Assembly (NCBI GenBank): GCA_005788585.1
Contig: SYBY01000249.1
Span: 1-16,026 of the forward strand
DNA: 16,026 bases
Source: Actinomycetota bacterium
GTDB taxonomy: Bacteria > Actinomycetota > Thermoleophilia > Solirubrobacterales > Solirubrobacteraceae
Direction: 5' to 3'
Shown: piece by piece, positions 1,851-15,314 of the stretch
How the letters are laid out: every line of letters starts with the position of its first letter
How positions within the stretch are numbered: position 1 is the stretch's first letter
The notes under the pieces: model-generated
What the model was told of the DNA's origin: nothing
Databases searched by the model: none
What the model saw: the letters and a program-made list of their open reading frames with translations, nothing else
Program-made: the position numbers and the translations under genes

Positions 1851-2593
1851 GAGTGGCCTCTCGGGGTTGGGGAACGGGTGGCTCTCAGGCGCCGCTCGGC
1901 GATCGCGAGCAGGGCGACGAGCGAGATGGCAAAGGTGGCGAGCACGACGACGGCGGCCCAGGCGCGCGCCGTCTCCAGCTGGGGGATGGACTGCAGGATC
2001 ATGTGGCCGAGGCCGGCCTCCGAGCCGGCGTACTCGGCGAACACCGCGCCCATCACGGCGACGGCGACGGCGATCTTCGCGCCCGACACGGCGGCGGGGA
2101 CGGCGGCGGGCAGTTCGGCGAAGCGCAGGCGCTGCCAGCGCGTGGCGTCCATCGAGCGCAGGACCCGCAGGAGCTCGCCGTCGGTGGAGGACAGCGCGCC
2201 GAGCGTGACCACGACGATGGGGAAGAAGGCGACGAGCGCGACGATCACGACCTTGGGACCCAGGTCGTACCCGAACCACACCACCAGCAGTGGGGCGATC
2301 ACGGGGATCGGCAGGGCGACGGAGGCCACGAGCAGCGGGTAGATGGCCCGGCGGGCGGTCCGCGAGAGGTGCAGGCCCACGGCGAGCAGCAGGCCGACGA
2401 CGAGCGCGAGCAGGATCCCCAAGCCGACCTCGGTGGCGGTGACCGTGAAGTTGGACCACAACAGCGCCCGTTCGTCGACCAGCGCGGTGGCGATCGCGCT
2501 CGGCGCGGGGAGCAGCAGCTCGTCGACCGAACCGAGCTGCACGTAGAGCTCCCAGGCGCCGAGCAGGGCAAGGACGATGACGGCGCTCAGCAT
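1847..2593 (-). CDS. thiX: ThiX-like ABC importer permease
   Basis: Integral membrane permease (BPD_transp_1 family), 248 residues, partner of the adjacent ATPase and binding protein. Hydrophobic segments lie near residues 1-20, 52-76, 84-108, 114-135, 172-190 and 211-232, giving about six helices. The cytoplasmic EAA-type loop that docks on the ATPase is visible at about 141-175 (LLRVLRSMDATRWQRLRF followed by ELPAA), as in permeases of the nitrate/sulfonate/taurine/HMP group. The ATG at 2593 overlaps the ATPase stop by 7 nt (ATGCTGA), and a GGAGG lies about 10 nt upstream inside the ATPase gene, so translation is probably coupled. Earlier in-frame ATGs up to 2866 lie within the ATPase gene and give non-family sequence. 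Its stop overlaps the binding-protein start. Confidence 0.9.
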   Translation of the reverse strand: MLSAVIVLALLGAWELYVQLGSVDELLLPAPSAIATALVDERALLWSNFTVTATEVGLGILLALVVGLLLAVGLHLSRTARRAIYPLLVASVALPIPVIAPLLVVWFGYDLGPKVVIVALVAFFPIVVVTLGALSSTDGELLRVLRSMDATRWQRLRFAELPAAVPAAVSGAKIAVAVAVMGAVFAEYAGSEAGLGHMILQSIPQLETARAWAAVVVLATFAISLVALLAIAERRLRATRSPTPRGHS

Positions 2594-3363
2594 GCGCGCA
2601 GGGCCTCCAGGGCCTGTCGGCGCAGCGCGATGAGCGCCGGGTCGGCCGGATCCCGCGGGCGCGCGCCGGGGACGGCCAGCTCGGCGACGATGCGCGCGGG
2701 GCGGGGCGACAGGACGCAGACGCGGTCGGCGAGGACGAGCGCCTCCTCGATGTCGTGGGTCACGAGCAGGACCGTGCGCGGCTGGCTGGCCAGCGCGCCG
2801 GCCAGCCAGCGGTGGATCTCGGCGCGGGTGATGGCGTCCAGGGCGCCGAACGGCTCGTCGAGGCACAGGACGCCGCGGCCGGTCAGCAGCGCACGGGCGA
2901 AGGCGACGCGCTGACGCATGCCGCCCGAGAGCTGCGCGGGATGCGCGCGCTCGAATCCCGACAGCCCGAGCTCGGCCAGCAACGGTTCGGCGCGGCGGCG
3001 GGCCTCCGCCCGGGCCATGCCTTGCAGGCGCAGCGGCAGCGCGGCGTTGTCCAGCGCGTCGGCCCAGGGCAGCAGCGCGTCACGTTGCGGGACGAGCGCC
3101 GCCGCGACGGCCGCGACCGTGCCCGAGGACGGGTGCTGCAGGCCGCAGGCGATCTCGAGCAGCGTGCTCTTCCCGCAGCCGCTGGGACCCACGAGCGCGA
3201 CGGTCTCGCCGGCGGGGACCTCGAGGGTCAGGCCGCCCAGGACCTCGAGGTCGCCGAAGCGGTGGCGGATGTCGCGCAGCAGGACGGCCGGCGCCTGCGC
3301 GCCATCCTCACTCCGCGGCGTTCGGACCGGCACCGCTTGCGGTGTCGTGGTCTCGGACTGCAT
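2587..3363 (-). CDS. thiZ: ThiZ-like ABC importer ATPase
   Basis: Cytoplasmic ATPase energising the importer, 258 residues. All motifs are intact: Walker A GPSGCGKST (59-67), Q-loop Gln93 (VPQRD), signature LSGGMRQR (145-152), Walker B VLCLDEP (165-171) and switch His203 (VTHDIEEA). The C-terminal part ends shortly after the ABC fold, typical of the NrtD/SsuB/ThiZ group. I start it at the ATG at 3363, preceded by GGAGGGAG with good spacing. An upstream in-frame ATG at 3381 is part of the conserved TAATGCC of the TPP riboswitch and is very unlikely to be a start. First gene of a three-gene operon, so riboswitch control would extend to permease and binding protein through coupled overlaps. Confidence 0.92.
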   Translation of the reverse strand: MQSETTTPQAVPVRTPRSEDGAQAPAVLLRDIRHRFGDLEVLGGLTLEVPAGETVALVGPSGCGKSTLLEIACGLQHPSSGTVAAVAAALVPQRDALLPWADALDNAALPLRLQGMARAEARRRAEPLLAELGLSGFERAHPAQLSGGMRQRVAFARALLTGRGVLCLDEPFGALDAITRAEIHRWLAGALASQPRTVLLVTHDIEEALVLADRVCVLSPRPARIVAELAVPGARPRDPADPALIALRRQALEALRAC

Positions 3364-3457
3364 CGCTCCCTCCGCGGGCATTACCCCACAGGTTCGAAGG
3401 GTCTGCGCCGCCTGCGGACGCGATCTCAGCCGGCCTGCCGCCAGCCCCCCTGGTTGT
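3364..3457 (-). promoter_or_regulatory. TPP riboswitch (THI box) in the leader of the thiZXY-like operon
   Basis: Read on the minus strand, the leader has the TPP aptamer elements in order: an AGGGGGGC start (near 3445-3453), CTGAGAT (3429-3423), CCTTCGAACCTG (3400-3389), GTGGGGTAATGCC (ending at 3377), then GCGGAGGGA (to about 3368). These match the conserved THI-box core that binds thiamine pyrophosphate. The GGAGGGAG at the 3' end is at once aptamer sequence and the Shine-Dalgarno of the ATPase gene starting at 3363, so ligand binding would plausibly hide the ribosome site. No U-rich intrinsic terminator lies between aptamer and ATG, which favours translational control. The exact P1 pairing is not resolved by eye. 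Confidence 0.93.
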
Positions 3458-3465
3458 CGCTGCGG

Positions 3466-3471
3466 ATCCTA
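3466..3471 (-). promoter_or_regulatory. Candidate -10 box (TAGGAT) of the thiZXY-like operon
   Basis: TAGGAT on the minus strand lies about 10 nt upstream of the first aptamer bases, which would place the transcription start just before the riboswitch. No good -35 hexamer is visible at 16-18 nt spacing (a TCGACG sits 15 nt away). Position is the main support. Confidence 0.3.
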
Positions 3472-3508
3472 GAGGATGGACCGCCCCGTCGATGTATGGG
3501 AGGACCGG

Positions 3509-3529
3509 TCAATCGGTCTTTCAATCGGT
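3509..3529. repeat. Short direct repeat TCAATCGGT x2 in a divergent promoter region
   Basis: Two perfect 9-bp copies of TCAATCGGT (3509-3517 and 3521-3529) are separated by CTT, giving a 12-bp period. They lie between the TPP riboswitch leader on the minus strand and the start of the GGDEF/EAL gene on the plus strand, a place suited to a regulator site. No regulator is identified. The second copy is followed by TAGTACG, a possible -10-like element for the plus-strand gene. Confidence 0.5.
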
Positions 3530-3565
3530 AGTACGTTCTGCCACGTAGTCCCTGCGTCTCCGCCG

Positions 3566-6500
3566 ATGTCGCGCGCCGACCCGACACCCGACCCCGAGCC
3601 CACCCCGGCCCTGCGCCGGCGCGCCGACCGCCTGCGGTTCTGGGCGGTGGTGGGGGCGCTGATCGTGACGACCGCGATCGCGACGGTGATCGCCCACGGG
3701 ATCGACGTGGACCGCGAGCGCGCGCGCGAGGCGACCGCCGCCGACCAGGCGGTCGCGGCGATCGAGACCTCGGCCGCGCGGCTGGAGGACACGGTCCGTG
3801 ACCTCACGTCGCTGTTCGCCGCCAGCGACAGCGTCACGACCGAGGAGTTCTTCGCGTTCGCCGAACCCGCGCTCGAGGCCGGGGCGGCGTCGGGGCTCTC
3901 GCGGATCGACCTCGTCGACGGAGAAGACCGGGCGGCGTTCGAGCGCCGGTTCGGGCGGCCCATCTGGGAGCCCGCCGGTGATGACAGGCGCCGGGCGCCC
4001 GAACGCGAGGCCTATGCCGTCATCGTGAACGTCGCGGCGCGGACGCTCGAGCGGCCGGTCGTGGGCTACAACGTCCTCGCCGACAAGGAGGGCCAGCGGG
4101 CTGCGGCGCTGCGCGCGTCGGCGCGCACCGGCGAGACCGTCGCCTCCGGCGTCGTGCCGCTCGCGGCAAGCGGCCGCGCCGGGTTCGTCGTGTTTTCACC
4201 GAGGTACGAGGAAGGGCAGCCCGCCCAGACGCCGGCAGAGCGGCAACGAGCGCTCATGGGCTGGGTGTCAGGCGCGCTGGACTACCGCCAGCTCGGGCTC
4301 GCGGTCCGCACGGCCGCGGGCAGCGGCGGCCTGCGCCTCAGCCAGGACGGCAAGACCCTGGTGTCCATCGGCGAGATCGACGGGGATCCGGTCCGCGCGT
4401 CGCCGGTCATCGCCGGGACGCGCTGGCAGGTCGAGCTGTCCCCCGATCCCGACGGGCTCATCCCGGTTGCGGCCTGGGTCGCGCTGCTCGGCGTCCTCGG
4501 CACGATCTTCGTCGCCCTGCTGATGCGCCAGGCGGCGATCAGCGAGCACCGTTCCCGTCAGCTCGCGACGCTCCGCGGACGCGAACGCGATGAGGCGGTC
4601 CGTACCGGGGCGGCCGAGCGCGCAGCGATGCAGGCGCTGCTCGGGCACCTCCCCGATATTGCGATGTACCGCTACGACACCGACCTGCGCTTCACCACGG
4701 TCGCGGGCGGCCTGATCGCTGCCACCGGGCGCGCGTCGGCCCAGCTCGTCGGCTGCGGGCCTGCCGACATCGCGACCGACGAAGAGGCCGCGGTGCTCGA
4801 GCCCACGATGCGCGCGGCGATCGACGGCGCGTCGCACAGCTTCGCGATGACCCTCGGGGGCCGCCGCCTCTGGGTCCAGACCGTCCCGCTCACCGAGGGG
4901 GAGGAGGCGCTGCTGGTCGCCACGGACGTCACGGGCCTCGAACGCGCGCAGGCCGGGCGGGCCGAGGCCGAGGCGCGCTTCCAGCAGGCGTTCGACGACG
5001 CGCCCGTGGGCATGTCGCTCATGGACCTCCAGGGACGCTTCATCGAGGTCAACCGCGCGTTGTGCGAGATGACCGGCTATGACGCCGATGATCTGCGCGG
5101 CCACAACTTCTCCGTCCTGTCACGGTCGGAGGACATGCCGGCCCTCGCCGACGCGCTGCGCCAGCAGGCCGCCGGCGAAACGCATCGCGTGACCACCGAG
5201 ACGCGCGCGGTCCACGCGTCAGGGAACACGATCTGGCTGGAGATCCACGCGACGACGCTCGCCGGGCCGGACGGCCGGCCCGCGCTCGTGCTCAGCCAGG
5301 TCCTCGACGTGACCGACCGCCGGCGCTTCGAGGCGCGCATCCAGTACATGGCTGACCACGACCCGCTCACCGGCATGGCGAACCGGCGGGCGTTCGAGCG
5401 GGCGCTGGACACCCAGCTGGCGAACGTCCGCCGCTACGGCGCCCAGGGCGCGCTCCTCGTCTTCGACCTCGACCACTTCAAGGCCGTCAACGACACGCTG
5501 GGCCACACCGCGGGCGACGCGGTGATCGTCAACGCCGCCCGGATCCTGAAGGACCTGCTGCGCGAAAGCGACGTCGTCGCGCGGCTCGGCGGCGACGAGT
5601 TCGCCATCCTGCTCCCGCGCGCCGACCACGACGAGGCCGTCGACGTGGCGCGCAAGCTCGTGACGGAGATCCGCGCCAACGGCAGCGTGCTGGCGGGCCA
5701 GCGCCCCGGGAGCGTCACCGCGAGCGTGGGGGTCACGCTGCTCGACCCGGTGCAGGAGACGGGCGAGCAGGCGCTCGTCGACGCCGACCTCGCGATGTAC
5801 GACGCCAAGGAGGCGGGCCGCGACCGGTTCGCCGTGTTCCATCCGGGCAGCGAAGCCGCCCAGTCGCGCACGAAGTCCCGGCTGACCTGGCTGGAGCGCA
5901 TCCGCACGGCGCTCGACGACGACGCGATGGTCCTCGTCGCCCAGCCGATCCAGTCGCTCGACGACGAGCGCGTCGTCCACCACGAGCTCCTGCTGCGAAT
6001 GGTCGACGCCCACGGCGACCTCATCCCGCCCAGCTCGTTCCTGCACATCGCCGAGCGCTTCGGGCTCATCGAGGACGTCGACATCTGGGTGGTCCGTCAC
6101 GCGATCCGCGCGCTCGCCGAGCGCGCGGGGCAGGACCTGATCTTCGAGGTCAACCTGTCGGGCGGGTCGATCGGCTCCTCACGGGTCCTGCAGGTCATCG
6201 AGCAGGAACTGCGGGACACGGGGGTCGACCCCCAGCGGCTGATCTTCGAGATCACGGAGACCGCGGCGGTGTCGAACGTCGCCGAGGCCCGGGTGTTCGC
6301 CGAGCGCCTCGGCGAGCTCGGCTGCCGGTTCGCGCTCGACGACTTCGGCGCGGGCTTCGGCTCGTTCTACTACCTCAAGCACCTGCCGTGCGACTTCCTG
6401 AAGATCGACGGCGAGTTCATCCGCAACCTCTCGTCCACGCCGACCGATCAGGTGATCGTCGCGGGGCTCGTGCGGATCGCGCAGGGCCTCGGCAAGCAGA

Positions 6501-6649
6501 CGATCGCGGAGTTCGTCGGAGACCAGGAGACCGTCGATCTGCTGCGCCGCGAGGGCGTCGACATGGCGCAGGGCTACTTCGTCGGGCGGCCGGGGCGGCT
6601 GGAGGACGTCCTGGGGCCCGCTCCGGGCGTGGGCGCGCGGCGGCCCTAG
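3566..6649 (+). CDS. Membrane-bound CHASE-PAS-PAS-GGDEF-EAL cyclic-di-GMP protein
   Basis: Bifunctional-looking cyclic-di-GMP enzyme, 1027 residues from the ATG at 3566. Transmembrane helices at about 25-43 and 298-320 bracket an extracytoplasmic CHASE sensor domain (about 60-285; VGYNVLADKEGQR and FVVFSPRY are typical). Two PAS domains follow (about 350-450, divergent, and 472-590, canonical). The GGDEF domain (about 600-755) has an intact active site GGDEF (675-679) and an intact inhibitory I-site RESD (666-669). The EAL domain (about 780-1020) reads ELLLR at 807 instead of EALLR but keeps the ExTE motif (FEITET), DDFG at 925-928, LKID with Lys946, and QGY near the end, so phosphodiesterase activity is plausible. 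An in-frame ATG at 3476 would add 30 non-family residues and run into the opposing promoter region. No Shine-Dalgarno precedes 3566. It stands alone as a plus-strand gene. Confidence 0.92.
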   Translation: MSRADPTPDPEPTPALRRRADRLRFWAVVGALIVTTAIATVIAHGIDVDRERAREATAADQAVAAIETSAARLEDTVRDLTSLFAASDSVTTEEFFAFAEPALEAGAASGLSRIDLVDGEDRAAFERRFGRPIWEPAGDDRRRAPEREAYAVIVNVAARTLERPVVGYNVLADKEGQRAAALRASARTGETVASGVVPLAASGRAGFVVFSPRYEEGQPAQTPAERQRALMGWVSGALDYRQLGLAVRTAAGSGGLRLSQDGKTLVSIGEIDGDPVRASPVIAGTRWQVELSPDPDGLIPVAAWVALLGVLGTIFVALLMRQAAISEHRSRQLATLRGRERDEAVRTGAAERAAMQALLGHLPDIAMYRYDTDLRFTTVAGGLIAATGRASAQLVGCGPADIATDEEAAVLEPTMRAAIDGASHSFAMTLGGRRLWVQTVPLTEGEEALLVATDVTGLERAQAGRAEAEARFQQAFDDAPVGMSLMDLQGRFIEVNRALCEMTGYDADDLRGHNFSVLSRSEDMPALADALRQQAAGETHRVTTETRAVHASGNTIWLEIHATTLAGPDGRPALVLSQVLDVTDRRRFEARIQYMADHDPLTGMANRRAFERALDTQLANVRRYGAQGALLVFDLDHFKAVNDTLGHTAGDAVIVNAARILKDLLRESDVVARLGGDEFAILLPRADHDEAVDVARKLVTEIRANGSVLAGQRPGSVTASVGVTLLDPVQETGEQALVDADLAMYDAKEAGRDRFAVFHPGSEAAQSRTKSRLTWLERIRTALDDDAMVLVAQPIQSLDDERVVHHELLLRMVDAHGDLIPPSSFLHIAERFGLIEDVDIWVVRHAIRALAERAGQDLIFEVNLSGGSIGSSRVLQVIEQELRDTGVDPQRLIFEITETAAVSNVAEARVFAERLGELGCRFALDDFGAGFGSFYYLKHLPCDFLKIDGEFIRNLSSTPTDQVIVAGLVRIAQGLGKQTIAEFVGDQETVDLLRREGVDMAQGYFVGRPGRLEDVLGPAPGVGARRP

Positions 6650-6966
6650 GGACCGCTGGCGATCGTCACGGTCCACGTCGACGTGTAGGTGCCGGTGCGG
6701 GCGTTCGCGGGCACGGCGAGCGAGAACGCGGGCGTGAGGTCCACCGGGCCCGTCCCGGTGTCATCGGGCGTGCTGAAGAACTTCGCGGCCGTCGGGGCGA
6801 CGCCTGCTGCCGGGAGCGTGATCGGATACGACATCGTGTTCGACGGGGCGACGCACGCGCCGCCCTGCGGCGTGGCGCTGACGCCGGTGATCGTCGTGGC
6901 GGTGGTGGGCAAGGTATTGCCGCCGCTGGTGAACGTGGTCGAGGTGGCGCTGAGCGACCAGCCGGC
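6646..6966 (-). repeat. WxL-domain coding segment, copy 2 (paralogous to 9062-9391)
   Basis: The 3' end of the propeller gene is similar to the 3' end of the small WxL gene at both protein and DNA level. Shared blocks include TSTTFTSGGNTLPTTATT, YP-x-TLPAAGVAPT-A-K and GTYTSTWT. This indicates domain duplication, or gene conversion, within the operon. Confidence 0.8.
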
Positions 6967-8079
6967 CTGGGCTGCCGATTGGTCGTCGACGGTCAGCGCG
7001 CCCGTCGCAGTCGAGGTCAGCGATCCGCCGAGACTGACGGCGGGGAAGGTGACGGCTCCGAGCGGCGCGGTCATGCTCAGCGAGCCCGACGAGCAGCCGG
7101 GCGGAGCGGTGTACTTGTACGGGACGCCGATGGCGTCGCCCGCGAACGCGGTGGTCATGGTGGGGAAGTCCAGGACGTACATCGCGGCCGCCGAGCCGGT
7201 GTTCTCCTCGGTCCAGAGCGCACCGCCGTCGTCCGTGAACTGGCTCTTGTTCGCGACGCCGACGGACAGGCAGCGGTTCGTCGTCACGCACGAGATCGCG
7301 TAGGTGTCAGGGGCTGTGCCGGTGGTCTGCGCGGGCCAGGTCGCCCCGCCGTCGCTGGACTTCCTGATCTCGCCCGTGGTCGCGGCCACGTAGCAGACGG
7401 TCAGCGACGGGCAGGTGATGGGGTGTGCGGGCTGGGGGTAGACGTCGGGCATCGCGGCGGAGGTCGCCATGAGGTCCCACGTGTCGCTTCCGGCCTGCTT
7501 CTTGCGGATCTCACCTGGGCTCATCACCGCGTAGCAGACGGTCGTCGTCGGGCAGTCGATCCCGGCGATGTAGCTCGATGTCGTCTGGTCGGCGCTGTCG
7601 GTCCAGGTCGCGCCGCCGTCGGTGGTCCAGCGGAACTTGCGGACCGAACTGCCCGAATAGCAGACCTCGGTGGAGGGACAGTCGATCTCGGTCAGGAACA
7701 GGGCGTTGTCGTCATGCACCGTGGTCCACGACGCCCCGTGGTCCGTCGACTTGTAGGTCCGGCCGTCGCCGGCGACGGCGAAGCACGTGGTGACCGACGG
7801 GCAGTCCAGGCCGTAGATCGAGCCGCCGAGCGTCTGCGGGGACAGCGTCCAGTTCGTCCCGCCGTTCGAGGTGTACTGCACGCGTCCTCCGACGGTGACC
7901 TGGACGCAGTCGGTGGCAGTCGGGCACGAGTTGCCGTAGATGATCACGGCGGTGACCGCCTTGGTCTGCGCCGTCCAGGTTCCGGCGTGCGCGTCCGTTG
8001 CCGTCAGGCTGGCGAGCAGCACGCCCAGCAGCGCGACGGTCAAGCTCCAGCCGCGCACCCTTGCGGCGGGCGCGCTCAT
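6646..8079 (-). CDS. Secreted Asp-box beta-propeller protein with C-terminal WxL domain
   Basis: Predicted cell-surface protein, 477 residues. A signal peptide (residues 1 to about 32, cleaved near AHA) is followed by about six ~40-residue blades, each with a C-x5-C pair (52/58, 93/99, 134/140, 176/182, 223/229, 264/270) and mostly an Asp-box-like turn (S-x-DGG-x-TW), as in BNR/YCF48-type propellers. A seventh degenerate blade (about 301-325) lacks both cysteines. The C-terminal ~105 residues are a WxL domain: AGWSL at 372-376 and the distal motif YTSTWTV at 465-471, ending in P477. WxL domains bind peptidoglycan non-covalently in Firmicutes. The ATG at 8079 overlaps the stop of the upstream WxL-interacting protein gene as ATGA, confirming the start. 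Last gene of the WxL operon; its stop shares CTAG with the convergent GGDEF/EAL gene. Ligand of the propeller is unknown. Confidence 0.83.
   Translation of the reverse strand: MSAPAARVRGWSLTVALLGVLLASLTATDAHAGTWTAQTKAVTAVIIYGNSCPTATDCVQVTVGGRVQYTSNGGTNWTLSPQTLGGSIYGLDCPSVTTCFAVAGDGRTYKSTDHGASWTTVHDDNALFLTEIDCPSTEVCYSGSSVRKFRWTTDGGATWTDSADQTTSSYIAGIDCPTTTVCYAVMSPGEIRKKQAGSDTWDLMATSAAMPDVYPQPAHPITCPSLTVCYVAATTGEIRKSSDGGATWPAQTTGTAPDTYAISCVTTNRCLSVGVANKSQFTDDGGALWTEENTGSAAAMYVLDFPTMTTAFAGDAIGVPYKYTAPPGCSSGSLSMTAPLGAVTFPAVSLGGSLTSTATGALTVDDQSAAQAGWSLSATSTTFTSGGNTLPTTATTITGVSATPQGGACVAPSNTMSYPITLPAAGVAPTAAKFFSTPDDTGTGPVDLTPAFSLAVPANARTGTYTSTWTVTIASGP
7105..7947 (-). repeat. Tandem blade repeats within the propeller-WxL gene
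   Basis: Residues about 45-325 of the encoded protein repeat a pattern: hydrophobic strand, D/S/T-C-P-x4-C, short strand with G, a K/R/T-rich strand, then S/T-x-DGG-x-TW. I count six clear copies and a seventh, DFPTMTTAFA, in which both Cys positions are Phe and Ala. Spacing is about 41 to 47 residues per copy. Confidence 0.75.
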
Positions 8080-9092
8080 TCCGATCGTCGGAGGCGGCGT
8101 GCGATCGTGGGGGCCAGCCCCAGCAGCAGCGCGCCGCCGGCGATCGCGGCGATCGCCCACGCCGGCAGACCGCCCTGCTGCTTGACGACGGTGGAGGGCG
8201 GGGCGGCCTTCGGCGCCTGGTCGGTGCCGACCAGGCCGTCGCGCAGTGTCGCGCTGCCCGTGGACTCCTGCGGCGCCCCGCAGCCCGAGACGCTGGCGCT
8301 CACCCCGTACGTCCCCGGCTTGATCGTCCGCGGCCAGGCCAGCGGGTAGGCGATCCTCGCGCCGGGCAGCACCGTGTCGAGCGTCCGCTCGACGACGTCC
8401 TCCTTGCCGTCCTCAGACGTGAGCACGACGCGCAGATCCGGCCGGCACAGGCGTTCGCCCGTGTTCTCCAGCGGGAGCTCGACCGAGGCGACGGACGTTC
8501 CAGGCAGCGCCTGGATCCGCGCCTTGCCGACGGTGACGGGTCCGGGGCTGCCGCCGGGGACGATGATCCGGACGCCGACGACGATCCGGACGACCTGGGT
8601 CACGGACAGGTTCGACTTCGCCGTGGTCTCGACGGAATCCTGGAAGGCCAGGCCGCCGACGTGGTCGCCGGGGCGCGCCGTCTCGGGCACGCGGACCCGG
8701 AACGGGATCCGGCGCGATTCGCCCGGGGCGAGCGTGACCTGGCGGACGGAGGGCGTGAGCCACTCCGCGGTCGCGTCGTTGCGGTCGTCGCGGTTGGCGT
8801 AGACGGTCCCCGAGGTCACGCCGGTCAGGCCGTCGACCGGGTCGAGGCGGTAGCGCTGGATCTTGTCCGAGCCGTTGGACACCAGGACGCGGCGATCAAG
8901 GACGGCGCCGGGCTCCGCGTTCAGCGTGAAGTACGACGGTGCGCGCGCTTCGTCCGCCCCGGCGTCGGGACGGACGTTGAAGCCGTTGCCGAGAGGAGTG
9001 GCCGCGGCACCTGCCGTCGCGGTGCCCGCGAGCAGGAGCGCGACCGTCGCCAGCGCGAGCGCTACGGCCCGCTGGTGAGGCTGAAGGTCCAT
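8076..9092 (-). CDS. WxL-interacting protein (DUF916-like peptidoglycan-binding domain, membrane-anchored)
   Basis: Predicted anchor/partner of WxL proteins, 338 residues. Signal peptide at residues 1 to about 30 (MDLQPHQR then AVALALATVALLLAG, ending TAGAA). Residues about 50-178 resemble the DUF916 (WxLIP peptidoglycan-binding) beta domain: FTLNAEPG, LVSNGSDK, WLTPS with APGES, and the GDHVGGLAF turn leading into strands VVRIVVGVRIIVPG. A second beta domain (about 185-285) occupies the place of DUF3324 and ends KPGTYGVSASV. A TM helix (about 311-330) and a basic tail RRLRRSE complete the usual type-I anchor layout. The likely ATG at 9092 lies inside the 3' end of the upstream WxL gene (31-bp overlap); no ATG, GTG or TTG gives a better signal peptide downstream. 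The stop overlaps the propeller-WxL start by 4 bp. Family call is from layout and motifs, not a search. Confidence 0.8.
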   Translation of the reverse strand: MDLQPHQRAVALALATVALLLAGTATAGAAATPLGNGFNVRPDAGADEARAPSYFTLNAEPGAVLDRRVLVSNGSDKIQRYRLDPVDGLTGVTSGTVYANRDDRNDATAEWLTPSVRQVTLAPGESRRIPFRVRVPETARPGDHVGGLAFQDSVETTAKSNLSVTQVVRIVVGVRIIVPGGSPGPVTVGKARIQALPGTSVASVELPLENTGERLCRPDLRVVLTSEDGKEDVVERTLDTVLPGARIAYPLAWPRTIKPGTYGVSASVSGCGAPQESTGSATLRDGLVGTDQAPKAAPPSTVVKQQGGLPAWAIAAIAGGALLLGLAPTIARRLRRSE

Positions 9093-9391
9093 GTGGACGT
9101 GTAGGTGCCGGCGATGGTCGACGCAGGGATTGCGACCTGCCAGGTGGGGGTGAAGGTCTGTGCGGCCAGCCCCGTCGACGCGCTCGCGTTGAAGAGCTTC
9201 GTCGCGGTGGGGGCCACGCCGGCGGCGGGCAGGGTGTAGGGGTAGCTCACGCCGCTGGTCGTCGCCGTGGTGCAGGAGATCCCGGCGTCGCACGAGACCG
9301 GTGGCGTGGACGCCACGGTGGTGGCGGTGGTGGGCAGCGTGTTGCCGCCGCTCGTGAAGGTGGTCGAGGTGGCGGTGACGTTCCACCCGGC
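9062..9391 (-). repeat. WxL-domain coding segment, copy 1 (paralogous to 6646-6966)
   Basis: Partner of the segment at 6646-6966. The DNA around 9312-9370 and 6898-6956 is nearly identical over the TFTSGGNTLPTTATT codons, with a few substitutions, mostly synonymous. The remainder is diverged at insert loops. Confidence 0.8.
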
Positions 9392-9637
9392 GCCCGTTCC
9401 CCGGGCGTCGTTGACGTTGAAGTCCTGGGTCTGCGTCGTCGTCTTGTCGGTGCCGTCGAGCGTCGTTCCCGGGAAGGTCACGTTGCCCGGCGTGCCGTTG
9501 ATGAACGCGAGCGAGCCGCCGGTGACCGACGCGGTCGCGGTGGCGGCGCTCGCGCTGGGCGCGGTGCACGCGAGCGCTGCGAGCGGGACAAGTACGAGCG
9601 CCGCTGGAAGGCGGCGTGAGAGGGGTACGGCGAGCAT
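9062..9637 (-). CDS. Small secreted WxL-domain protein
   Basis: Predicted surface protein of 191 residues, first gene of the WxL operon. Signal peptide: RR at 8-9, hydrophobic core to about 23, probable cleavage after SASA near residue 31. The rest is essentially one WxL domain: first motif GWNV (W85), distal motif YTSTWTF (W183) and terminal SGP. A likely disulfide joins C116 and C122 (SCDAGISC). Compared with the canonical WxL tripeptide the third residue is Val in the first motif and Phe in the second. The start chosen, ATG at 9637, gives a compact signal peptide; ATG 9685 would add 16 residues, and neither has a clear Shine-Dalgarno. The distal WxL coding sequence doubles as the start region of the next gene. 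It probably binds peptidoglycan and the membrane-anchored neighbour. Confidence 0.82.
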   Translation of the reverse strand: MLAVPLSRRLPAALVLVPLAALACTAPSASAATATASVTGGSLAFINGTPGNVTFPGTTLDGTDKTTTQTQDFNVNDARGTGAGWNVTATSTTFTSGGNTLPTTATTVASTPPVSCDAGISCTTATTSGVSYPYTLPAAGVAPTATKLFNASASTGLAAQTFTPTWQVAIPASTIAGTYTSTWTFSLTSGP

Positions 9638-9865
9638 GTCGTGAGACAGCCGGGCGCGGAAGGAACCCGGCGGTACCACGTTCATCGGCAGCTTGTGCGC
9701 CCCGGGTGTAGGCCCCTCAGCGAACGTACGAGTGCGCAGCCGCTGCTGGTCGTCGCCGGCCGGCCGGACCCACGGCGCGATGCGCACCCTATGTGGACGC
9801 GGCTAGCCTTCCTGGGCGAGGTCGCGCGTCCGCCGGCCGTACAGCTGCGCGACCTGGAGGCGACC
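9638..9865. other. Divergent intergenic region between the WxL operon and a small plus-strand gene
   Basis: About 230 bp with no convincing gene. It must hold the promoters for both directions, but no strong -35/-10 pair is visible; TACGTT (near 9723-9728, minus strand) and TAGCCT (9804-9809, plus strand) are weak -10-like candidates only. Confidence 0.4.
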
Positions 9866-10072
9866 TTGGCCGGCAAGAAGAAGACGACGTTCGCGAAGAT
9901 GAACCGCGAGGCGAAGGTGCGCGAGAAGCGCCAGGCGAGCATCCTGCGCAAGGAGCAGCGCCAGCGCGACCGCGAAGCCGGCGTCGAGATCGAGCACGAG
10001 GTCGAGGACCTCAGCCACCTCGACGTGGCGTTCGTCGAGGGCGTCGAGCCCGACGTCAGCGTCAAGCCGTAA
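9866..10072 (+). CDS. Small highly charged basic protein of unknown function
   Basis: A 68-residue protein. The first ~38 residues are very Lys/Arg-rich (AGKKKTTFAK, then KVREKRQASILRKEQRQRDR) and would form a long charged helix; the C-terminal 30 are acidic (EIEHEVEDLSHLDVAF). I choose a TTG start at 9866 because GGAGG lies 5 nt upstream, and because upstream in-frame sequence is unlike a protein; an ATG at 9790 in another frame is not used. Resembles small KKTTFAK-type hypothetical proteins seen in actinobacteria, function unknown. Ends 32 bp before the convergent VWA gene, with a palindrome between them. Confidence 0.6.
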   Translation: MAGKKKTTFAKMNREAKVREKRQASILRKEQRQRDREAGVEIEHEVEDLSHLDVAFVEGVEPDVSVKP

Positions 10073-10087
10073 CGCACGGTACGTGGC

Positions 10088-10105
10088 GCGCTTCCGCGGA
10101 AGCGC
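10088..10105. terminator. Perfect 18-bp palindrome between convergent genes
   Basis: GCGCTTCCGCGGAAGCGC is its own reverse complement and lies between the stop of the small basic gene (10072) and the stop of the VWA gene (10105-10107), touching the latter. As RNA it forms a 7-bp GC-rich stem with a 4-nt loop on either strand. No U-tract follows, so it may be a bidirectional U-less terminator or an RNA 3'-end stabiliser. A weaker CACG-GTA-CGTG inverted repeat precedes it. Confidence 0.5.
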
Positions 10106-11511
10106 TACCGCACCGGCCGCGCCAGCGCCTTGACGAACTCCTCGAGCTGCTCGGTCGTCCAGCACTCGAACGCCTCGCAGTACTGCTCGTACGCCGAGAT
10201 CACCGAGTCGCCGTAGTTCCAGTACAACCGCGGCTCGGGGTTCAGCCAGAACGTCCGCCCGGCCTTCGCGGCGACGTCCGCGAAGAGATCCGCCCGCGGG
10301 TCGCGGCCGTTCGTGCGCGCATCACCCAGCACGATGACCGTCGCGCGGGGGTGCAGCTCGTCCTCGACCTGCTCGCGGAACTCCGACCACACCCGGCCGT
10401 AGTCCGTGTAGCCCGAGATGTCCGCCACCCCTGCGTCCCGGCTGATCGCCTCGTTGACCGCCTTGAAGTCGCGCTCGCGCTCGAAGACCTCGGTCACCTC
10501 GCTGATGCGCTCGATGAACACGAACGACCGCATCTTGCGAAACGAGTCGTGCAGCGCGTGCATGACGCTCAGGAAGAAGACCGACGCGCTCGTGACGCTC
10601 GTCGAGACGTCGCAGAGCACGAAGATCTCGGGGCGGCGCGGCCGGGTGGGCTTGTAGCGCAGGTCGACGGGCACGCCGCCGGTCTGCAGTGACGCGCGCA
10701 TGGTGCGGCGCACGTCGATCTGCGCGTGACGCTTGCGCCCGCGGTTCTCCTGGCCCTGGGTCTTCAGCCGCCGCTTGAGCTGGACGACGACCTTGTGCAC
10801 GCTGGCGAGGTCCTGCAGCGGGCCGCCGGGCAGGCCGCGGTCGAGGTCGGAGAGCGGGCGGGACGGCGGGAGCTGCTGGGTCCGTTCGATCGAGCCGCGC
10901 TCGAGCTCTCGGCGCAGGAGCTGCTCGAAGCGGCGCAGCTGCTCGCGGGGCAGGCCCTCACGGCGGGGATCGCCCTGGGGCGCGTCGGGCTGCGGGTCCG
11001 AGCGCAGGCCGAGCGAGCGGCGGATGCGCTGGACGTCGACGCCGATGACGCCCGAGCCCTGGCCGCGCCTGCCAAAGGCGCTGATCGCGAGCCGGGCGAG
11101 GTCGCGCATGGCGCCCTCGTCGCCGTCGCGGATGGCCTGGGCGATCGCGTCGCGCAGGTCGGCCTCGTCGAACGCACCGTCCTCGCCCGCCGCGGTCGCG
11201 GCCTGGTCCTCGTCGCCCTCCTTCACGCCCTCGCGCAGTGCGGCCTCCTCGCTGGCGCGGAAGAGGAAGCGGTCGAAGACGAGCTCGAACCGGCGGCGGT
11301 CCTCGGGGGACTTCGCCAGGGTCGCGGCGAGCGCCTCGCGGACGTCTTCGGGGTCGGTCCACGCCACCTCGCCGAGCGCGGCGACGGCGTCCATCAGCTC
11401 GGAGGTGCCCGACGACACGCCCTCGGCGCGCAGCTCCTCGGCCAGGAAGACGAGGTTCGCGGCGAACCCGCCGGGGCGCTCCAGATCGGTGCGTTGCCTA
11501 GGAGGCGCCAC
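10105..11511 (-). CDS. VWA-domain protein, CoxE-like
   Basis: Cytoplasmic von Willebrand factor A protein of 468 residues that normally works with a MoxR-type AAA+ ATPase as a chaperone or metal-insertion pair. The VWA domain is C-terminal (about 295-440) with the full MIDAS: DVSTS (301-305), Thr369 in SGYTDYG and Asp398 in LGDARTNGRDP. The N-terminal half is helical and charged, with the FAANLVFLAEELRAEG start and an acidic linker (about 95-120), as in CoxE-like (DUF58-unrelated) proteins. The GTG at 11511 overlaps the upstream ATPase stop by 14 nt; there is no strong Shine-Dalgarno, so translation is likely coupled. CoxE homologues assist CO-dehydrogenase maturation, but no CO-dehydrogenase subunit genes are in the window, so its client is unknown. 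Confidence 0.85.
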   Translation of the reverse strand: MAPPRQRTDLERPGGFAANLVFLAEELRAEGVSSGTSELMDAVAALGEVAWTDPEDVREALAATLAKSPEDRRRFELVFDRFLFRASEEAALREGVKEGDEDQAATAAGEDGAFDEADLRDAIAQAIRDGDEGAMRDLARLAISAFGRRGQGSGVIGVDVQRIRRSLGLRSDPQPDAPQGDPRREGLPREQLRRFEQLLRRELERGSIERTQQLPPSRPLSDLDRGLPGGPLQDLASVHKVVVQLKRRLKTQGQENRGRKRHAQIDVRRTMRASLQTGGVPVDLRYKPTRPRRPEIFVLCDVSTSVTSASVFFLSVMHALHDSFRKMRSFVFIERISEVTEVFERERDFKAVNEAISRDAGVADISGYTDYGRVWSEFREQVEDELHPRATVIVLGDARTNGRDPRADLFADVAAKAGRTFWLNPEPRLYWNYGDSVISAYEQYCEAFECWTTEQLEEFVKALARPVR

Positions 11512-12388
11512 GGGACGACGCCGCCAGGCGCACGCCGACGCGCTCGGCGACGATGTCGAGGTCCGTGCGGTGCTTGACGATGACCGACATCGTGTCGCGG
11601 AAGACCTGCTGGTCGAGGTCCTCGGCGCCGATGAGCAGCAGCGCGCGCGCCCAGTCGATCGATTCGGCGATCGACGGCGGCTTCTTCAGGTCGAGCTCGC
11701 GGACCATCCCGACGACCTCGACGAGCCGGCGCGCGATCGTCTCGTCCAGGTCGGGCGCGTGGAGGCGCACGATCTCCAGCTCGGCCTCGAGCTCGGGGTA
11801 GTCCAGCCAGAGGTAGAGGCAGCGGCGCTTCAGGGCCTCGGTCAGCTCGCGCGAGTTGTTGCTCGTCAGCAGCACGATCGGCTGCGACGCGGCGCGCACC
11901 GTGCCCATCTCCGGGATCGAGACCTGGAAGTCGCTCAGGATCTCGAGGAGCATGGCCTCGAACTCCTGGTCGGTCTTGTCGATCTCGTCGATCAGCAGGA
12001 CGACCGGGTCAGGGCTGGAGATCGCCTCGAGCAGCGGGCGCGTGAGCAGGAACTCCTCGCCGAAGATGTCGTCGTGGACGCTGTTCCAACCGGTGCCCTC
12101 GGCCTCGGCCTGGATGCGCAGCAGCTGCTTGCGGTAGTTCCACTCGTACAGCGCCGTGGCCTCGTCGAGCCCCTCGTAGCACTGCAGGCGCACGAGCTTG
12201 CGGCTCAGATAGCGGCTGAGCGCCTTCGCCAGCTCGGTCTTGCCCACGCCCGCGGGCCCCTCGACGAGCACCGGCTTGCCGAGTCGCGTGGCGAGGTACG
12301 CGACGAGCGCGGTGGATTCGCCGGCGAGATAGTCGGCGTCGCGCAGGCCCGCGCGAAGGTCTTCGACGGAGGCGGGGGAGTCGGCCAT
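11498..12388 (-). CDS. MoxR-family AAA+ ATPase, CoxD-like
   Basis: AAA+ ATPase of 296 residues, partner of the VWA gene downstream. Motifs: Walker A GPAGVGKT (44-51), Walker B LLIDEID (131-137), sensor-1 TSNN (175-178) and arginine residues LKRRC (187-190). The segment after Walker A, CYEGLDEATALYEWNYRKQ, is characteristic of the CoxD/MoxR branch. Such ATPases use ATP to remodel or mature client enzymes together with a VWA protein. I use the ATG at 12388 (MADSPASVEDL); longer frames to 12508 overlap the opposite small membrane-protein gene and give non-family sequence. No Shine-Dalgarno is visible, and a TATCAT box lies just upstream, so the message may have a very short leader. Confidence 0.9.
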   Translation of the reverse strand: MADSPASVEDLRAGLRDADYLAGESTALVAYLATRLGKPVLVEGPAGVGKTELAKALSRYLSRKLVRLQCYEGLDEATALYEWNYRKQLLRIQAEAEGTGWNSVHDDIFGEEFLLTRPLLEAISSPDPVVLLIDEIDKTDQEFEAMLLEILSDFQVSIPEMGTVRAASQPIVLLTSNNSRELTEALKRRCLYLWLDYPELEAELEIVRLHAPDLDETIARRLVEVVGMVRELDLKKPPSIAESIDWARALLLIGAEDLDQQVFRDTMSVIVKHRTDLDIVAERVGVRLAASSRGAS

Positions 12389-12397
12389 GGGCTGATG

Positions 12398-12403
12398 ATG
12401 ATA
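12398..12403 (-). promoter_or_regulatory. Candidate -10 box (TATCAT) for the MoxR/VWA operon
   Basis: TATCAT on the minus strand ends 9 nt before the ATG at 12388, which would give a 2-3 nt leader. The whole divergent gap is only 27 bp, so the promoter must lie inside or next to the opposite small gene. No good -35 is visible. Confidence 0.35.
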
Positions 12404-12415
12404 GGAAGTCCAACG

Positions 12416-12613
12416 ATGCCGGCTCTCGTCCTCGCGGCGACCTCCCCGTCGATCGGGCCGGTCCTCCTCCTTCTCGCCCTCGGGGTGCTGCTCACGTTCG
12501 GTGGGCACCTGACGGCGTCACGGCGCGCGATCGCGCTCGGGATCTTCGTGATCTTCCTCGCGACGGTGCTGATGTTCGCCTTCGGCCTCGGGGTCTACCA
12601 GCGCGACACCTGA
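12416..12613 (+). CDS. Small two-helix membrane protein of unknown function
   Basis: A 65-residue protein with two hydrophobic segments (about 12-29, PSIGPVLLLLALGVLLTFG; and about 39-60, containing ALGIFVIFLATVLMFAFG) joined by a short basic loop (HLTASRR) and ending YQRDT. The ATG at 12416 has AGGAAG (12403-12408) 7 nt upstream. It is divergent from the MoxR gene (27-bp gap) and its TGA ends one base before the convergent stop of the next gene. The fit into the gap and the good ribosome site support a real gene. No family recognised. Confidence 0.65.
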   Translation: MPALVLAATSPSIGPVLLLLALGVLLTFGGHLTASRRAIALGIFVIFLATVLMFAFGLGVYQRDT

Positions 12614-12614
12614 G

Positions 12615-13280
12615 TCAGCGCGCGGGCGGGATCTCGCCGGGTCGCAGGGGGCGGGTCGGCGGGTCCTCGGGCTCGGGCACCGGGAGATCGTCGAAGAGGG
12701 TGGGTGCCGTGTCGTCGACGTCGACCGGCGCGGACGTGCGCGGGCGCGGGCGGCGGGCCGGCGGCGCGGGCGCGACCTCGTGGTCGCGGGGATCGTCGCG
12801 CAGCAGCGGCGGGGGCGGGGGCGACTCGTCGTGGGCGCGCATCCGCCATCCCGCGGCGGCGAGCGCGATGCCGGCGATGAACGCGATGAAGATGCCCCAC
12901 GCGACGCCGACGACCGTGCCCTCCGGGCCGTCGGGCTTGTCGAGCTGGCGCAGGAAGATCAGCAGGCAGACCCACACGCCGCCGGCGAAGACGAAGGTTC
13001 CGTCGCGGCCGGGCAGGGAGAACGTGCCGCCCTCGGCGCGTCCGACGATGAGCGCGAGGACCGCCGCGGCGACGAGCAGCACGGCGGCCTCGGTGAAGTC
13101 GAAGACCTGGAACGCGTTGATGGTCCGGTCGGCCAGCGCTCCGCGCGCGGGCGCGGCGGTCAGCTGGTACCACGGCAGCAGCATGCTGACGAACAGCGCG
13201 AGGGCCGCGCCGGCGGCGAGGCGCTGGTCGCCGTGCAGGGACCGCCAGATCCCCCGGCCGCGCTGGGCGGCCCCACTCAT
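12615..13280 (-). CDS. Four-helix membrane protein with Pro-rich C-terminal tail
   Basis: Unrecognised membrane protein of 221 residues. Hydrophobic segments lie at about 21-40, 62-80, 94-111 and 122-147. The loop after the first contains a conserved-looking LLPWYQL. The ~70-residue C-terminal tail is Pro/Asp/Arg-rich (ESPPPPPLLRDD, then PLRPGEIPPAR) and probably disordered and cytoplasmic. The ATG at 13280 overlaps the stop of the upstream EVE gene as ATGA, which fixes the start and indicates coupled translation. Upstream in-frame sequence to 13484 belongs to the other frame of the EVE gene. Function cannot be inferred. Confidence 0.75.
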   Translation of the reverse strand: MSGAAQRGRGIWRSLHGDQRLAAGAALALFVSMLLPWYQLTAAPARGALADRTINAFQVFDFTEAAVLLVAAAVLALIVGRAEGGTFSLPGRDGTFVFAGGVWVCLLIFLRQLDKPDGPEGTVVGVAWGIFIAFIAGIALAAAGWRMRAHDESPPPPPLLRDDPRDHEVAPAPPARRPRPRTSAPVDVDDTAPTLFDDLPVPEPEDPPTRPLRPGEIPPAR

Positions 13281-13741
13281 GCCGGGACGCCGGAGGCGGC
13301 GCGCAGGCGCGCCATCAGCAGGTCGGCGTCGTGCGTGCTGACGGTGCGGATCTGCCCCTGGAACGCGAGCGTCCAGTGCTCGGCCGGCCACTTCCTCACG
13401 TGCTCGAGGTCGTCCTTCAGCGCCTCGGCGGGCACGAACTCCGCCTCCTCGAGGACCAGCTCGGGCTCGGTGGCAAAGCGCCACGGATACGGGTCGACCT
13501 TGCCCGGCTTGCCCGGCCAGATCTTCTCGCGGTCCTCGTAGAGCTCCCCGGTGACCGTGATCGACGCCGCGAACCGCATGATCTTCGTGAGGTAGAGGAC
13601 GATCCGGTCGCCCGGCTCGATCTCGAGCGCGCGGTTGCGGTTGCGCTCCTTCAGCCCGATGACCGTGAAGCCGCGGCCGGCGGTCGCCGCGTAGTTCTCG
13701 GGCGAGCCGGTGAGGATCCAGGTGCGCGCGTCGTCGGCCAT
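13277..13741 (-). CDS. EVE-domain (PUA-like) protein
   Basis: A 154-residue single-domain protein of the EVE family, related to PUA and YTH folds that bind modified bases in nucleic acids. Typical elements are the opening strand TWILTGSPENY (7-17), the PGDRIVLYL turn (43-51), FAASITVTGELYED (57-70) and the Pro/Tyr-rich YPWRF (85-89), with helix VPAEALKDDLEHVRKW near 103-118. The ATG at 13741 has no Shine-Dalgarno but a TAGAAT box exactly 7 nt upstream, pointing to a leaderless message. The stop overlaps the four-helix membrane gene by 4 bp. EVE proteins occur in restriction-type defence and in housekeeping roles; no restriction gene is nearby, so no role is assigned. Confidence 0.8.
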   Translation of the reverse strand: MADDARTWILTGSPENYAATAGRGFTVIGLKERNRNRALEIEPGDRIVLYLTKIMRFAASITVTGELYEDREKIWPGKPGKVDPYPWRFATEPELVLEEAEFVPAEALKDDLEHVRKWPAEHWTLAFQGQIRTVSTHDADLLMARLRAASGVPA

Positions 13742-13748
13742 ACCGTCG

Positions 13749-13754
13749 ATTCTA
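13749..13754 (-). promoter_or_regulatory. -10 box (TAGAAT) of a probable leaderless promoter for the EVE gene
   Basis: TAGAAT on the minus strand is separated by 7 nt from the ATG at 13741, the distance expected if transcription begins at the start codon. It lies in the 33-bp gap after the 116-residue protein gene. No clear -35 is visible. Confidence 0.55.
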
Positions 13755-13774
13755 CGGGGCGGCCGGGCGTCGGT

Positions 13775-14125
13775 TTAGTCGACCGGGATGTCCTGCACGA
13801 CCGGCCCGCCGGGCGCGTCGACCGGTGCGATCCGCTCGATCCACCAGTCCAGGATCCCGCGGAGCAGGAGCAGCAGCTGGCGGATGACCTCGGCGAGCTG
13901 GCGCCACAGATCCTCGGGCACGAGGCCGCGCACGGTCTGCAGCAATGCGGTCAGCGCCTGTGCCTCGGCGGCCGCGTCCTCCGTCGGCGGCGCGCCCGTC
14001 GACGCGCCGTTGGCGGTCTGTGCCTTCGCCGTCTCGGCCGCGAGGCGGTCGACGGCCTCCTGCGTGCGCTCGATGCGCTCGCGCAGGGCGGCCAGCGGGT
14101 CCTCGGGAGGCTCGGGGTCGGTCAC
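13775..14125 (-). CDS. Small helical protein coupled to the ArsA-type ATPase gene
   Basis: A 116-residue protein of unknown function. The N-terminal part is an acidic coiled-coil-like helix (LAALRERIERTQEAVDRLAA, about 11-30), then an Ala/Thr/Pro-rich linker (31-52), then a long amphipathic to hydrophobic helix region (about 53-100) with RQLLLLLRGILDWW at about 82-95. It ends VVQDIPVD. The GTG at 14125 overlaps the ATPase stop as GTGA, so it is translated with the ATPase and may be its partner. The hydrophobic stretch contains Arg and Asp and is better read as a membrane-surface or protein-binding helix than a true TM. No family recognised. Confidence 0.7.
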   Translation of the reverse strand: MTDPEPPEDPLAALRERIERTQEAVDRLAAETAKAQTANGASTGAPPTEDAAAEAQALTALLQTVRGLVPEDLWRQLAEVIRQLLLLLRGILDWWIERIAPVDAPGGPVVQDIPVD

Positions 14126-15303
14126 GTGGTGGGGGTGGGCGGGTCGAAGGACACGGTCAGCGCACCGTCGGTCAGCGCGGCGCCCGCGGGACGATAGTCC
14201 TGCAGCGCGGGCGGGAGCAGCACGGTCCGGGTGTGGCCGTCGATGCCGATGACGAGCTCCTCGCCGACCTGGCGCAGGGAAACGTCGCCCTTCTGCGCGA
14301 ACGGGAGCGTCAGGCGGAGGTGGGCCTGCTCGTCGCCGAGCTCCAGGCGCTCGCCGATCTCGTCGTGCAGCACGGAGATCGGCGCCTCCACGCCCGTGAA
14401 CAGCTGCTCGGCGAGGCGGTCGAGCATCTCGGGGCCGCGCACCTCTTCGCCGAAGAAGGGAGCGCGCAGCAGCGGGAGGGGCGCGAAGGCCTGGCCGACC
14501 TCGATGAGCGCCTCGGTCTGCCGTGCGCGCCACGCGTCGAAGTACGCGCCGACCTCCTCGGGGAAGACACGGTTGACGATGATCGCGTCGGTCAACAGGC
14601 CGTACAGATTCAGGTAGGTGAACGTCCGGCGGGATTCGTCGACGACCAGCTTCTCCGGGGTCATGACCAGGCGCAGCGAGACGCGTTCGTGGTCGCGCAG
14701 GACGTCGCACAGCGCGACGAGGTCGCGCAGCAGGTCACCGGCGCCGTCGAGCGCCTTGTTGCTCGGCAGCGTGATGTCGAGCGCCGCGCGTGCGATCGGC
14801 CGCGCGGCGTCGAGGGCGCGGCGGTTGCCCGCGGTGCGTCCCAGCCACCAGCGCGCGGCGTCGGGCAGCGCGAGCAGCCGGAGGGTCTCGCCGCTCGCCG
14901 CGCAGTCGACCACGACGACGTCGAAGACCGCCTCCTCGGCGTGGCGGCGCAGTTCGAGCAGGCCGACGAGCTCGTGCAGCCCGGGCGGCATCGCGAGCTC
15001 CTCGGCGCGGATGCGCTCCATGCCGCGGTCGGACAGGACCCCGGCCAGCCAGGAGCGGATGGCGCCCCAATGGCGTTCGATCTCGTCACGGGCCTCGACC
15101 TGCTGCGCCCAGAGCCCTTCGCTGACCGGCGCCGCGGCCGGGCCGACTTCGCGGCCGAGCACGTCGCCGAGCGAGCCCGCCGGGTCGGTGGAGAGCAGGA
15201 GCGTGCGGCGACCGGCCGCCGCTGCCCGGCGCGCCGTCGCGGCAGCGACCGAGGTCTTCCCGACCCCGCCCTTGCCCGTATAGAGGATGATCCGCGGCCC
15301 CAC
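14122..15303 (-). CDS. ArsA/Get3-type ATPase with C-terminal HSP20-like domain
   Basis: P-loop ATPase of the ArsA/GET3 (SIMIBI) class, 393 residues. The deviant Walker A is at 9-17 (TGKGGVGKT), switch I at 40-47 (DPAGSLGD, where DPAHSLSD is usual, so His is replaced by Gly), and the VVVDCAASGETLRLL block at 130-144 corresponds to the DTAPTGHTLRLL signature. The last ~85 residues (309-393) fit the ArsA HSP20-like domain. There is no arsenite-binding metal site or ars operon around it, so arsenic export is not supported; a chaperone or targeting ATPase role is more likely. The GTG start at 15303 lies 11 nt after the stop of the epimerase-like gene, suggesting co-transcription. Longer in-frame sequence to 15756 overlaps that gene in another frame. 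Confidence 0.87.
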   Translation of the reverse strand: MGPRIILYTGKGGVGKTSVAAATARRAAAAGRRTLLLSTDPAGSLGDVLGREVGPAAAPVSEGLWAQQVEARDEIERHWGAIRSWLAGVLSDRGMERIRAEELAMPPGLHELVGLLELRRHAEEAVFDVVVVDCAASGETLRLLALPDAARWWLGRTAGNRRALDAARPIARAALDITLPSNKALDGAGDLLRDLVALCDVLRDHERVSLRLVMTPEKLVVDESRRTFTYLNLYGLLTDAIIVNRVFPEEVGAYFDAWRARQTEALIEVGQAFAPLPLLRAPFFGEEVRGPEMLDRLAEQLFTGVEAPISVLHDEIGERLELGDEQAHLRLTLPFAQKGDVSLRQVGEELVIGIDGHTRTVLLPPALQDYRPAGAALTDGALTVSFDPPTPTT

Positions 15304-15314
15304 GGCCGCCGAGT

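Follow-up and report, generated by a model that had tools for sequence, protein, structure and literature searches.

Proteins with a WxL domain are known mainly from Firmicutes, which contribute more than 91% of 938 WxL sequences according to one survey (PMC9772566). The commonest published cluster combines one WxL-interacting protein (WxLIP) with two WxL proteins (98 of 179 clusters in PMC10599100), and the model put forward there, drawn from gut bacteria, involves binding to the host, with the anchor helix entering host membranes. Here, we describe a WxL cluster of three genes, A, B, and C, located at 6646..9637 of a 16,026-nucleotide (nt) stretch of actinobacterial DNA (GenBank contig SYBY01000249.1, positions 1 to 16,026; the whole stretch is hereafter called the window), which has a GC content of 72.7%. 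Literature searches, two of which listed 20 of 562 and 20 of 189 papers and which reached few subscription papers, found no treatment of WxL clusters in actinobacteria. A preliminary description of the window, made from the sequence alone, had stated, in agreement with this literature, that WxL loci are described mainly from Firmicutes.

The WxL (csc) clusters of Enterococcus, Lactiplantibacillus, and Listeria are like the present one in having a small WxL protein and a large WxL protein with a C-terminal domain. The set of one WxLIP and two WxL proteins, and the C-terminal position of the WxL domain, are likewise those of the Firmicutes clusters. In contrast to them, the cluster in the window belongs to a GC-rich actinobacterium, PF11797 goes unrecognised by sequence in its anchor, the literal W-x-L is mostly absent, the large WxL protein has a propeller tip with C-x5-C pairs, and GGDEF genes lie near many related loci. 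We consider it likely that A, B, and C form a WxL surface cluster of the canonical kind, in an actinobacterium resembling the Solirubrobacteraceae, with B holding A and C at the wall; the membrane-anchored B probably clamps two partners, one of which is propeller-tipped. The assignment to these families is sound, and as WxL clusters go the arrangement is ordinary. What is new is modest: the lineage in which the cluster occurs, the exchanged tips, a second Trp that seems dispensable, and GGDEF genes as neighbours.

Genes and domains of the cluster

Genes A (9062..9637), B (8076..9092), and C (6646..8079) are three adjacent, overlapping genes on the minus strand, as the preliminary description had reported with the right coordinates. 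B may start at an ATG at 9092, which gives a 31-nt overlap with A, or at a GTG at 9065, which gives one of 4 nt; the overlap of B with C is also 4 nt (ATGA). Gene A encodes a small WxL protein of 191 amino acids (aa), in which a signal-like hydrophobic N-terminus, recognised by eye, is followed by one WxL domain that runs to the C-terminus (...WTFSLTSGP). Its score against the Pfam WxL model, PF13731, is 25.6 bits, just over the cut-off of 25. At E ≤ 0.001, A has 661 relatives in the database, and several of the best 120 bear the NCBI name “WxL domain-containing protein [Solirubrobacteraceae bacterium]”; the family assignment was therefore already known in databases. A rejected candidate identity for A was a “Pam” pilin of the candidate phyla radiation (CPR), for which the NCBIfam match was weak (E = 0.059) and one literature search gave nothing related.

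Gene C encodes a large WxL protein of 477 aa, comprising a signal-like N-terminus (by eye), a YCF48-like beta-propeller (approximately residues 33–325; 7105..7983), and a C-terminal WxL domain (approximately residues 330–477; 6646..7092, up to the stop codon). The WxL domain was assigned from one pairwise comparison, in which A and C are 51% identical across 144 residues of the WxL region (E = 6e-27), and from several relatives of C at ~50% identity that carry PF13731. C also scores with our own WxL profile, A2 (E = 6e-51), but C is itself part of alignment A2, and this circular result was not used as evidence. The two proteins have paired Trp residues (W85 and W183 in A; W374 and W469 in C) and close with SGP before the stop codon, C ending in ...WTVTIASGP. 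The paired W motifs noted earlier thus stand as far as Trp is concerned; the Leu is literal only in motif 1 of C (WSL), motif 2 of C being WTV and the motifs of A being WNV and WTF.

The structure model of C has a predicted local distance difference test score (pLDDT) of 87.2, and its top 11 Foldseek matches are YCF48 proteins by title, with TM-scores of up to 0.78 by target. A motif scan of the propeller found five Asp-boxes and six C-x5-C pairs. C therefore shares its propeller fold and Asp-boxes with YCF48, the photosystem II assembly-factor propeller (PF14870), and differs from it in the signal-like N-terminus, the WxL fusion, and a YCF48/BNR score that is sub-threshold in Pfam.

The anchor protein and its proposed grip

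Gene B encodes the WxLIP anchor, 338 aa from the first start, which scores 43.8 bits against PF06030 (WxLIP_PGBD; cut-off 27.3). Its N-terminus is hydrophobic and signal-like by eye, so that at this level of inspection the N-terminus of all three proteins looks like a signal peptide. The structure model of B aligns across both immunoglobulin-like (Ig) domains with the solved WxLIP of Enterococcus faecium (E. faecium; PDB 9i1y/9i25), at 14–15% identity in the structure alignment, and both proteins have two Ig domains and a transmembrane (TM) helix. In addition, our anchor profile, A1, recovers the E. faecium WxLIP at E = 2.2e-9.

The C-terminal TM helix of B occupies model residues 311–337 (8082..8162, minus strand), where a hydrophobic stretch ends in RRLRRSE, in keeping with the C-terminal TM anchor of the preliminary description. 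To compare topologies, we pooled 90 anchors, some of them near-copies, and found a clear C-terminal hydrophobic stretch in 85; three had a weak one and two had too little sequence left. Lys and Arg after the helix outnumbered those before it in 84 of the 85 and equalled them in one, with means of 4.9 after and 1.2 before, compared to a mean of 1.1 Asp/Glu after the helix. Hydrophobic stretches were cut off at the first charged or polar residue, a rule that by itself raises the charge counted after the helix, but not Lys/Arg relative to Asp/Glu. The Lys/Arg excess therefore argues for anchoring in the bacterium's own membrane. For the E. faecium WxLIP, attachment to an animal host has been proposed (PMC10599100): the second Ig domain would bind the host, and the host membrane would take up the C-terminal helix. 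Although B shares the two Ig domains and the helix with that protein, we regard such a role here as very improbable, given that the Lys/Arg distribution is a bacterial stop-transfer pattern and that the named sources are metagenome-assembled genomes (MAGs) of Solirubrobacteraceae, Solirubrobacterales, Acidimicrobiales, “Actinobacteria”, or Blastococcus.

Judging from its sequence, B would be exported and kept in its own cytoplasmic membrane by the C-terminal helix and the Arg-rich cytosolic tail. By analogy with E. faecium, its first Ig domain would then lend a flexible hairpin strand to the C-terminal WxL domain of A or C, filling out the beta-sandwich there and thereby holding these two proteins at the cell wall. 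A would act as a bare WxL platform protein, whilst C would show its YCF48-like propeller outward, where its ligand is probably a protein or glycan of the environment or of a biofilm. For E. faecium, it has been proposed that the WxL sandwich is completed by a first-domain hairpin of WxLIP that takes on an ordered form (PMC10599100), and PDB entry 9i25, as far as its title tells, holds that WxLIP “bound to long WxL”. The candidate strand in B (approximately residues 153–173; 8574..8636, minus strand) was located from lower model confidence and conservation: between strands 142–152 and 169–178, the pLDDT block means are 73 and 78 at residues 151–170, and the hydrophobic pattern of the region is conserved, with Arg169 nearly invariant. 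The hairpin at approximately 151–170 is the likely grip on WxL, on the same analogy.

A hairpin that completes the beta-sandwich of a partner resembles the chaperones of chaperone-usher systems, and the chaperones CsuC, CfaA, FimC, and Caf1M also have two Ig domains, as does B. The cluster might be a monoderm counterpart of such systems, in which B is a tethered donor-strand chaperone, the WxL proteins are incomplete Ig subunits that may polymerise if small, and the free C-terminal carboxylate of WxL docks at the conserved Arg of B. We think this unlikely. Arg169 does not separate WxL-linked anchors (43 of 51) from other anchors (9 of 14), so that the hairpin Arg failed as a marker of the former, and no usher or pilin subunit was found among 13 window proteins scanned with Pfam.

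Recurrence and variation in related genomes

The closest relative of the cluster is locus L001, from a Solirubrobacteraceae MAG, which has the same three genes (B is 91% identical) beside the same VWA and GGDEF-EAL genes as in the window, and which was the only return of a single-protein scan of genome contigs. Along with the Pfam matches, the A/C identity, and the fold match, it bears out the earlier claim of a WxL and DUF916-type operon in an actinobacterial genome. An open reading frame (ORF) that by eye is alpha/beta-hydrolase-like lies between the small WxL and VWA genes of L001 (3864–4559, plus strand), with none observed at the equivalent position of the window. A further anchor, 88% identical (P0003), is labelled as coming from a Blastococcus sp. 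MAG, perhaps owing to a mis-binned contig or to transfer.

We searched 299 genomes from the class of L001's genome with the WxLIP (A1) and WxL (A2) profiles. A WxLIP match at E ≤ 1e-5 was present in 61 and a WxL match in 27, with both in 23 (Fisher P = 2.6e-14, uncorrected for kinship or completeness) and four of the 27 lacking a WxLIP match. At the level of the family, 27 of 146 genomes had a WxLIP at E ≤ 1e-10; in a sample of the phylum, PF06030 was found in 25 of 396 and PF13731 in 8 of 396, six of the latter being among the former. Gene order was then mapped in the window, in L001, and in 55 further stretches (57 loci in all). The 55 were chosen mostly around stronger WxLIP matches of the class and family searches, with some weak ones and with L098 taken for its WxL, and some contigs end inside the locus, so that the following shares hold for anchor-selected loci. 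WxLIP and WxL occurred together in 46 of the 57, confirming by neighbourhood survey that the pairing recurs in the class, and WxL occurred alone in one. Among 92 WxL ORFs in anchor loci, 71 were within 300 nt of the nearest anchor and 85 were on its strand. Exactly one WxLIP with two WxL proteins was the commonest arrangement (22 of the 46 loci with both). The preliminary description had spoken of a reduced system, which does not hold, since this composition is usual both here and in the published clusters (PMC10599100).

Several results weigh against a WxL surface cluster as we read it. C scores 17.3 bits with PF13731, under the cut-off, and Pfam gave no PF11797 match in B at E ≤ 1; of the profile matches anticipated earlier, only those of PF13731 to A and PF06030 to B therefore exceeded the cut-off. 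Solved WxL chains were absent both from the matches of the A2 profile at E ≤ 1 and from the best 50 Foldseek matches listed for C. Arg169 is not WxL-specific, 10 of the 57 loci have a WxLIP-like anchor with no detectable WxL, and of the 61 class genomes in which a WxLIP was matched, 38 have no WxL match. As the model of B aligns with the solved WxLIP over both Ig domains, the unmatched PF11797 looks like divergence rather than loss. The anchor-only loci and the 38 genomes suggest that distant DUF916-like anchors probably have other partners. Such anchors, with no WxL found nearby, are those of L063, L064, L065, L066, L069, and L095; L063 and L064 have long cytosolic tails, and L066 and L069 a much shorter hairpin. 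Directly upstream of the L066 anchor is a metallophosphatase gene (Pfam), an arrangement reminiscent of the metallophosphatase/DUF916 surroundings described for “Ang-2” genes (PMC12537917).

The tips of ten large WxL proteins were scanned with Pfam. Matches over cut-off were a lactonase with PKD (L039), YCF48 (L040), TIG arrays (L041), and DUF11 (L050); the other six had no tip match or weak ones only. The Pfam WxL model was over cut-off in two of the ten and weak in two, and the C-terminal WxL of the remaining six rests on our own iterated profile. These tips bear on whether C might instead be a secreted glycoside hydrolase or an assembly factor, its shared C-terminal domain a mere linker and no display complex being formed. 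The best match of the C propeller is indeed YCF48, and C matches the NCBIfam glycosylhydrolase F510_1955 at E = 2e-10. However, the latter match reaches 40.4 bits, far under the cut-off of 175, and WxL domains are joined to diverse, unrelated tips and, in most loci, stand beside a WxLIP; there is, in our estimation, hardly any likelihood of this alternative. A surface cluster is, moreover, consistent with a more general role than host binding, namely the modular, non-covalent hanging of exchangeable domains (propellers, PKD, TIG arrays) on the Gram-positive wall. The class is reported mainly from soil and hot springs (PMC6544083), and an intact, recurrent cluster in such a class argues for a role beyond gut hosts.

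Motif conservation was tallied in 278 pooled WxL domains (211 from the database and 67 from the loci, near-copies and window genes included), for which motif finding was crude. The WxL match reached the last residue of the protein in 260. A Trp was present within the last 25 residues in 235 and absent from them in 43, and in 228 of the 235 it stood exactly eight residues from the end. Leu was found at motif 2 in 71 of the 235 and at motif 1 in 51 of the 278. Of the 46 loci, 22 have the second Trp in every WxL protein, two in some, and 22 in none; the ORF in one of the two mixed loci, L086, is truncated at a contig end, and a few ORFs of the loci without a second Trp match only part of the domain. 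WxL proteins without it, beside a WxLIP, were seen in L042–L050, L052–L055, L057, L060–L062, L067–L068, L093–L094, and L096–L097 (in L044, in two of three proteins only). Motif 2 thus seems dispensable, and relatives without the second Trp reveal the essential parts of the WxL domain. The scarcity of Leu and the frequent absence of this Trp mean that the name Trp-x-Leu overstates conservation in the class. Absence of the second Trp coincides with a shifted Arg in the anchor (7/7 versus 17/39 loci, P = 0.0097). We rejected co-evolution as an explanation, because the shifted-Arg anchors are one clade, which indicates a single event.

A second anchor type, GGDEF genes, and the surroundings of the cluster

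In a second WxLIP-type anchor (n = 5), the Ig region leads into a long linker and a helix, beyond which lies a cytosolic tail centred on DPKLxxAP. Anchors with this tail occur in L036 (twice; 1026–4164 and 5615–8487), L041 (5920–8987), L079, and L080 (2944–6323); for the second copy in L036, the match covers no more than the later half of the anchor profile. In L081 (2–2699), the contig stops short of the tail, but the tree places this anchor with the other five, and the six form one group (96/78; branch not starred). A GGDEF gene is directly upstream on the same strand in all five testable cases (L036 twice, L041, L080, and L081), the L079 contig beginning at the anchor gene and hence being outside the count, and the stop-to-stop ORFs of the GGDEF gene and the anchor overlap. 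The GGDEF assignments come from Pfam for both L036 copies and L041, from the genome search for L081, and from our own profile for L080.

Over 52 loci (omitting the window and L063–L066, which have distant anchors), we observed 15 GGDEF domains, compared to 4.0 expected from the density in each genome (Poisson P = 2e-5), and without the second-anchor loci 10 compared to 3.2 (P = 0.002); both P values are too small, as loci are related and several come from one genome. Loci were searched with our own profile and genomes with PF00990, and for one genome (G001) only 66 of 84 candidates were scored. The adjacent diguanylate cyclases suggest a testable idea on the timing of display production. A joint reading, in which donor-strand action, a cyclic di-GMP (c-di-GMP) tie through these cyclases, and the second anchor with its conserved cytosolic tail all belong together, is doubtful.

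In the window, the convergent neighbour of C is a CHASE-PAS-GGDEF-EAL gene (3476..6649, plus strand; Pfam), and the stops of the two overlap in CTAG. This gene is outside the core operon, and a c-di-GMP link is possible. At 10105–12508 (minus strand), a CoxE-like VWA protein adjoins an AAA ATPase (Pfam), a couple that we take to be a MoxR-like pair. The other window genes identified with Pfam encode an HhH-GPD DNA glycosylase (10–933, plus strand), an NMT1/THI5-like protein and an ABC ATPase (816–3381, minus strand), an EVE domain protein (13277–13741, minus strand), and an ArsA-type ATPase (14122–15756, minus strand).

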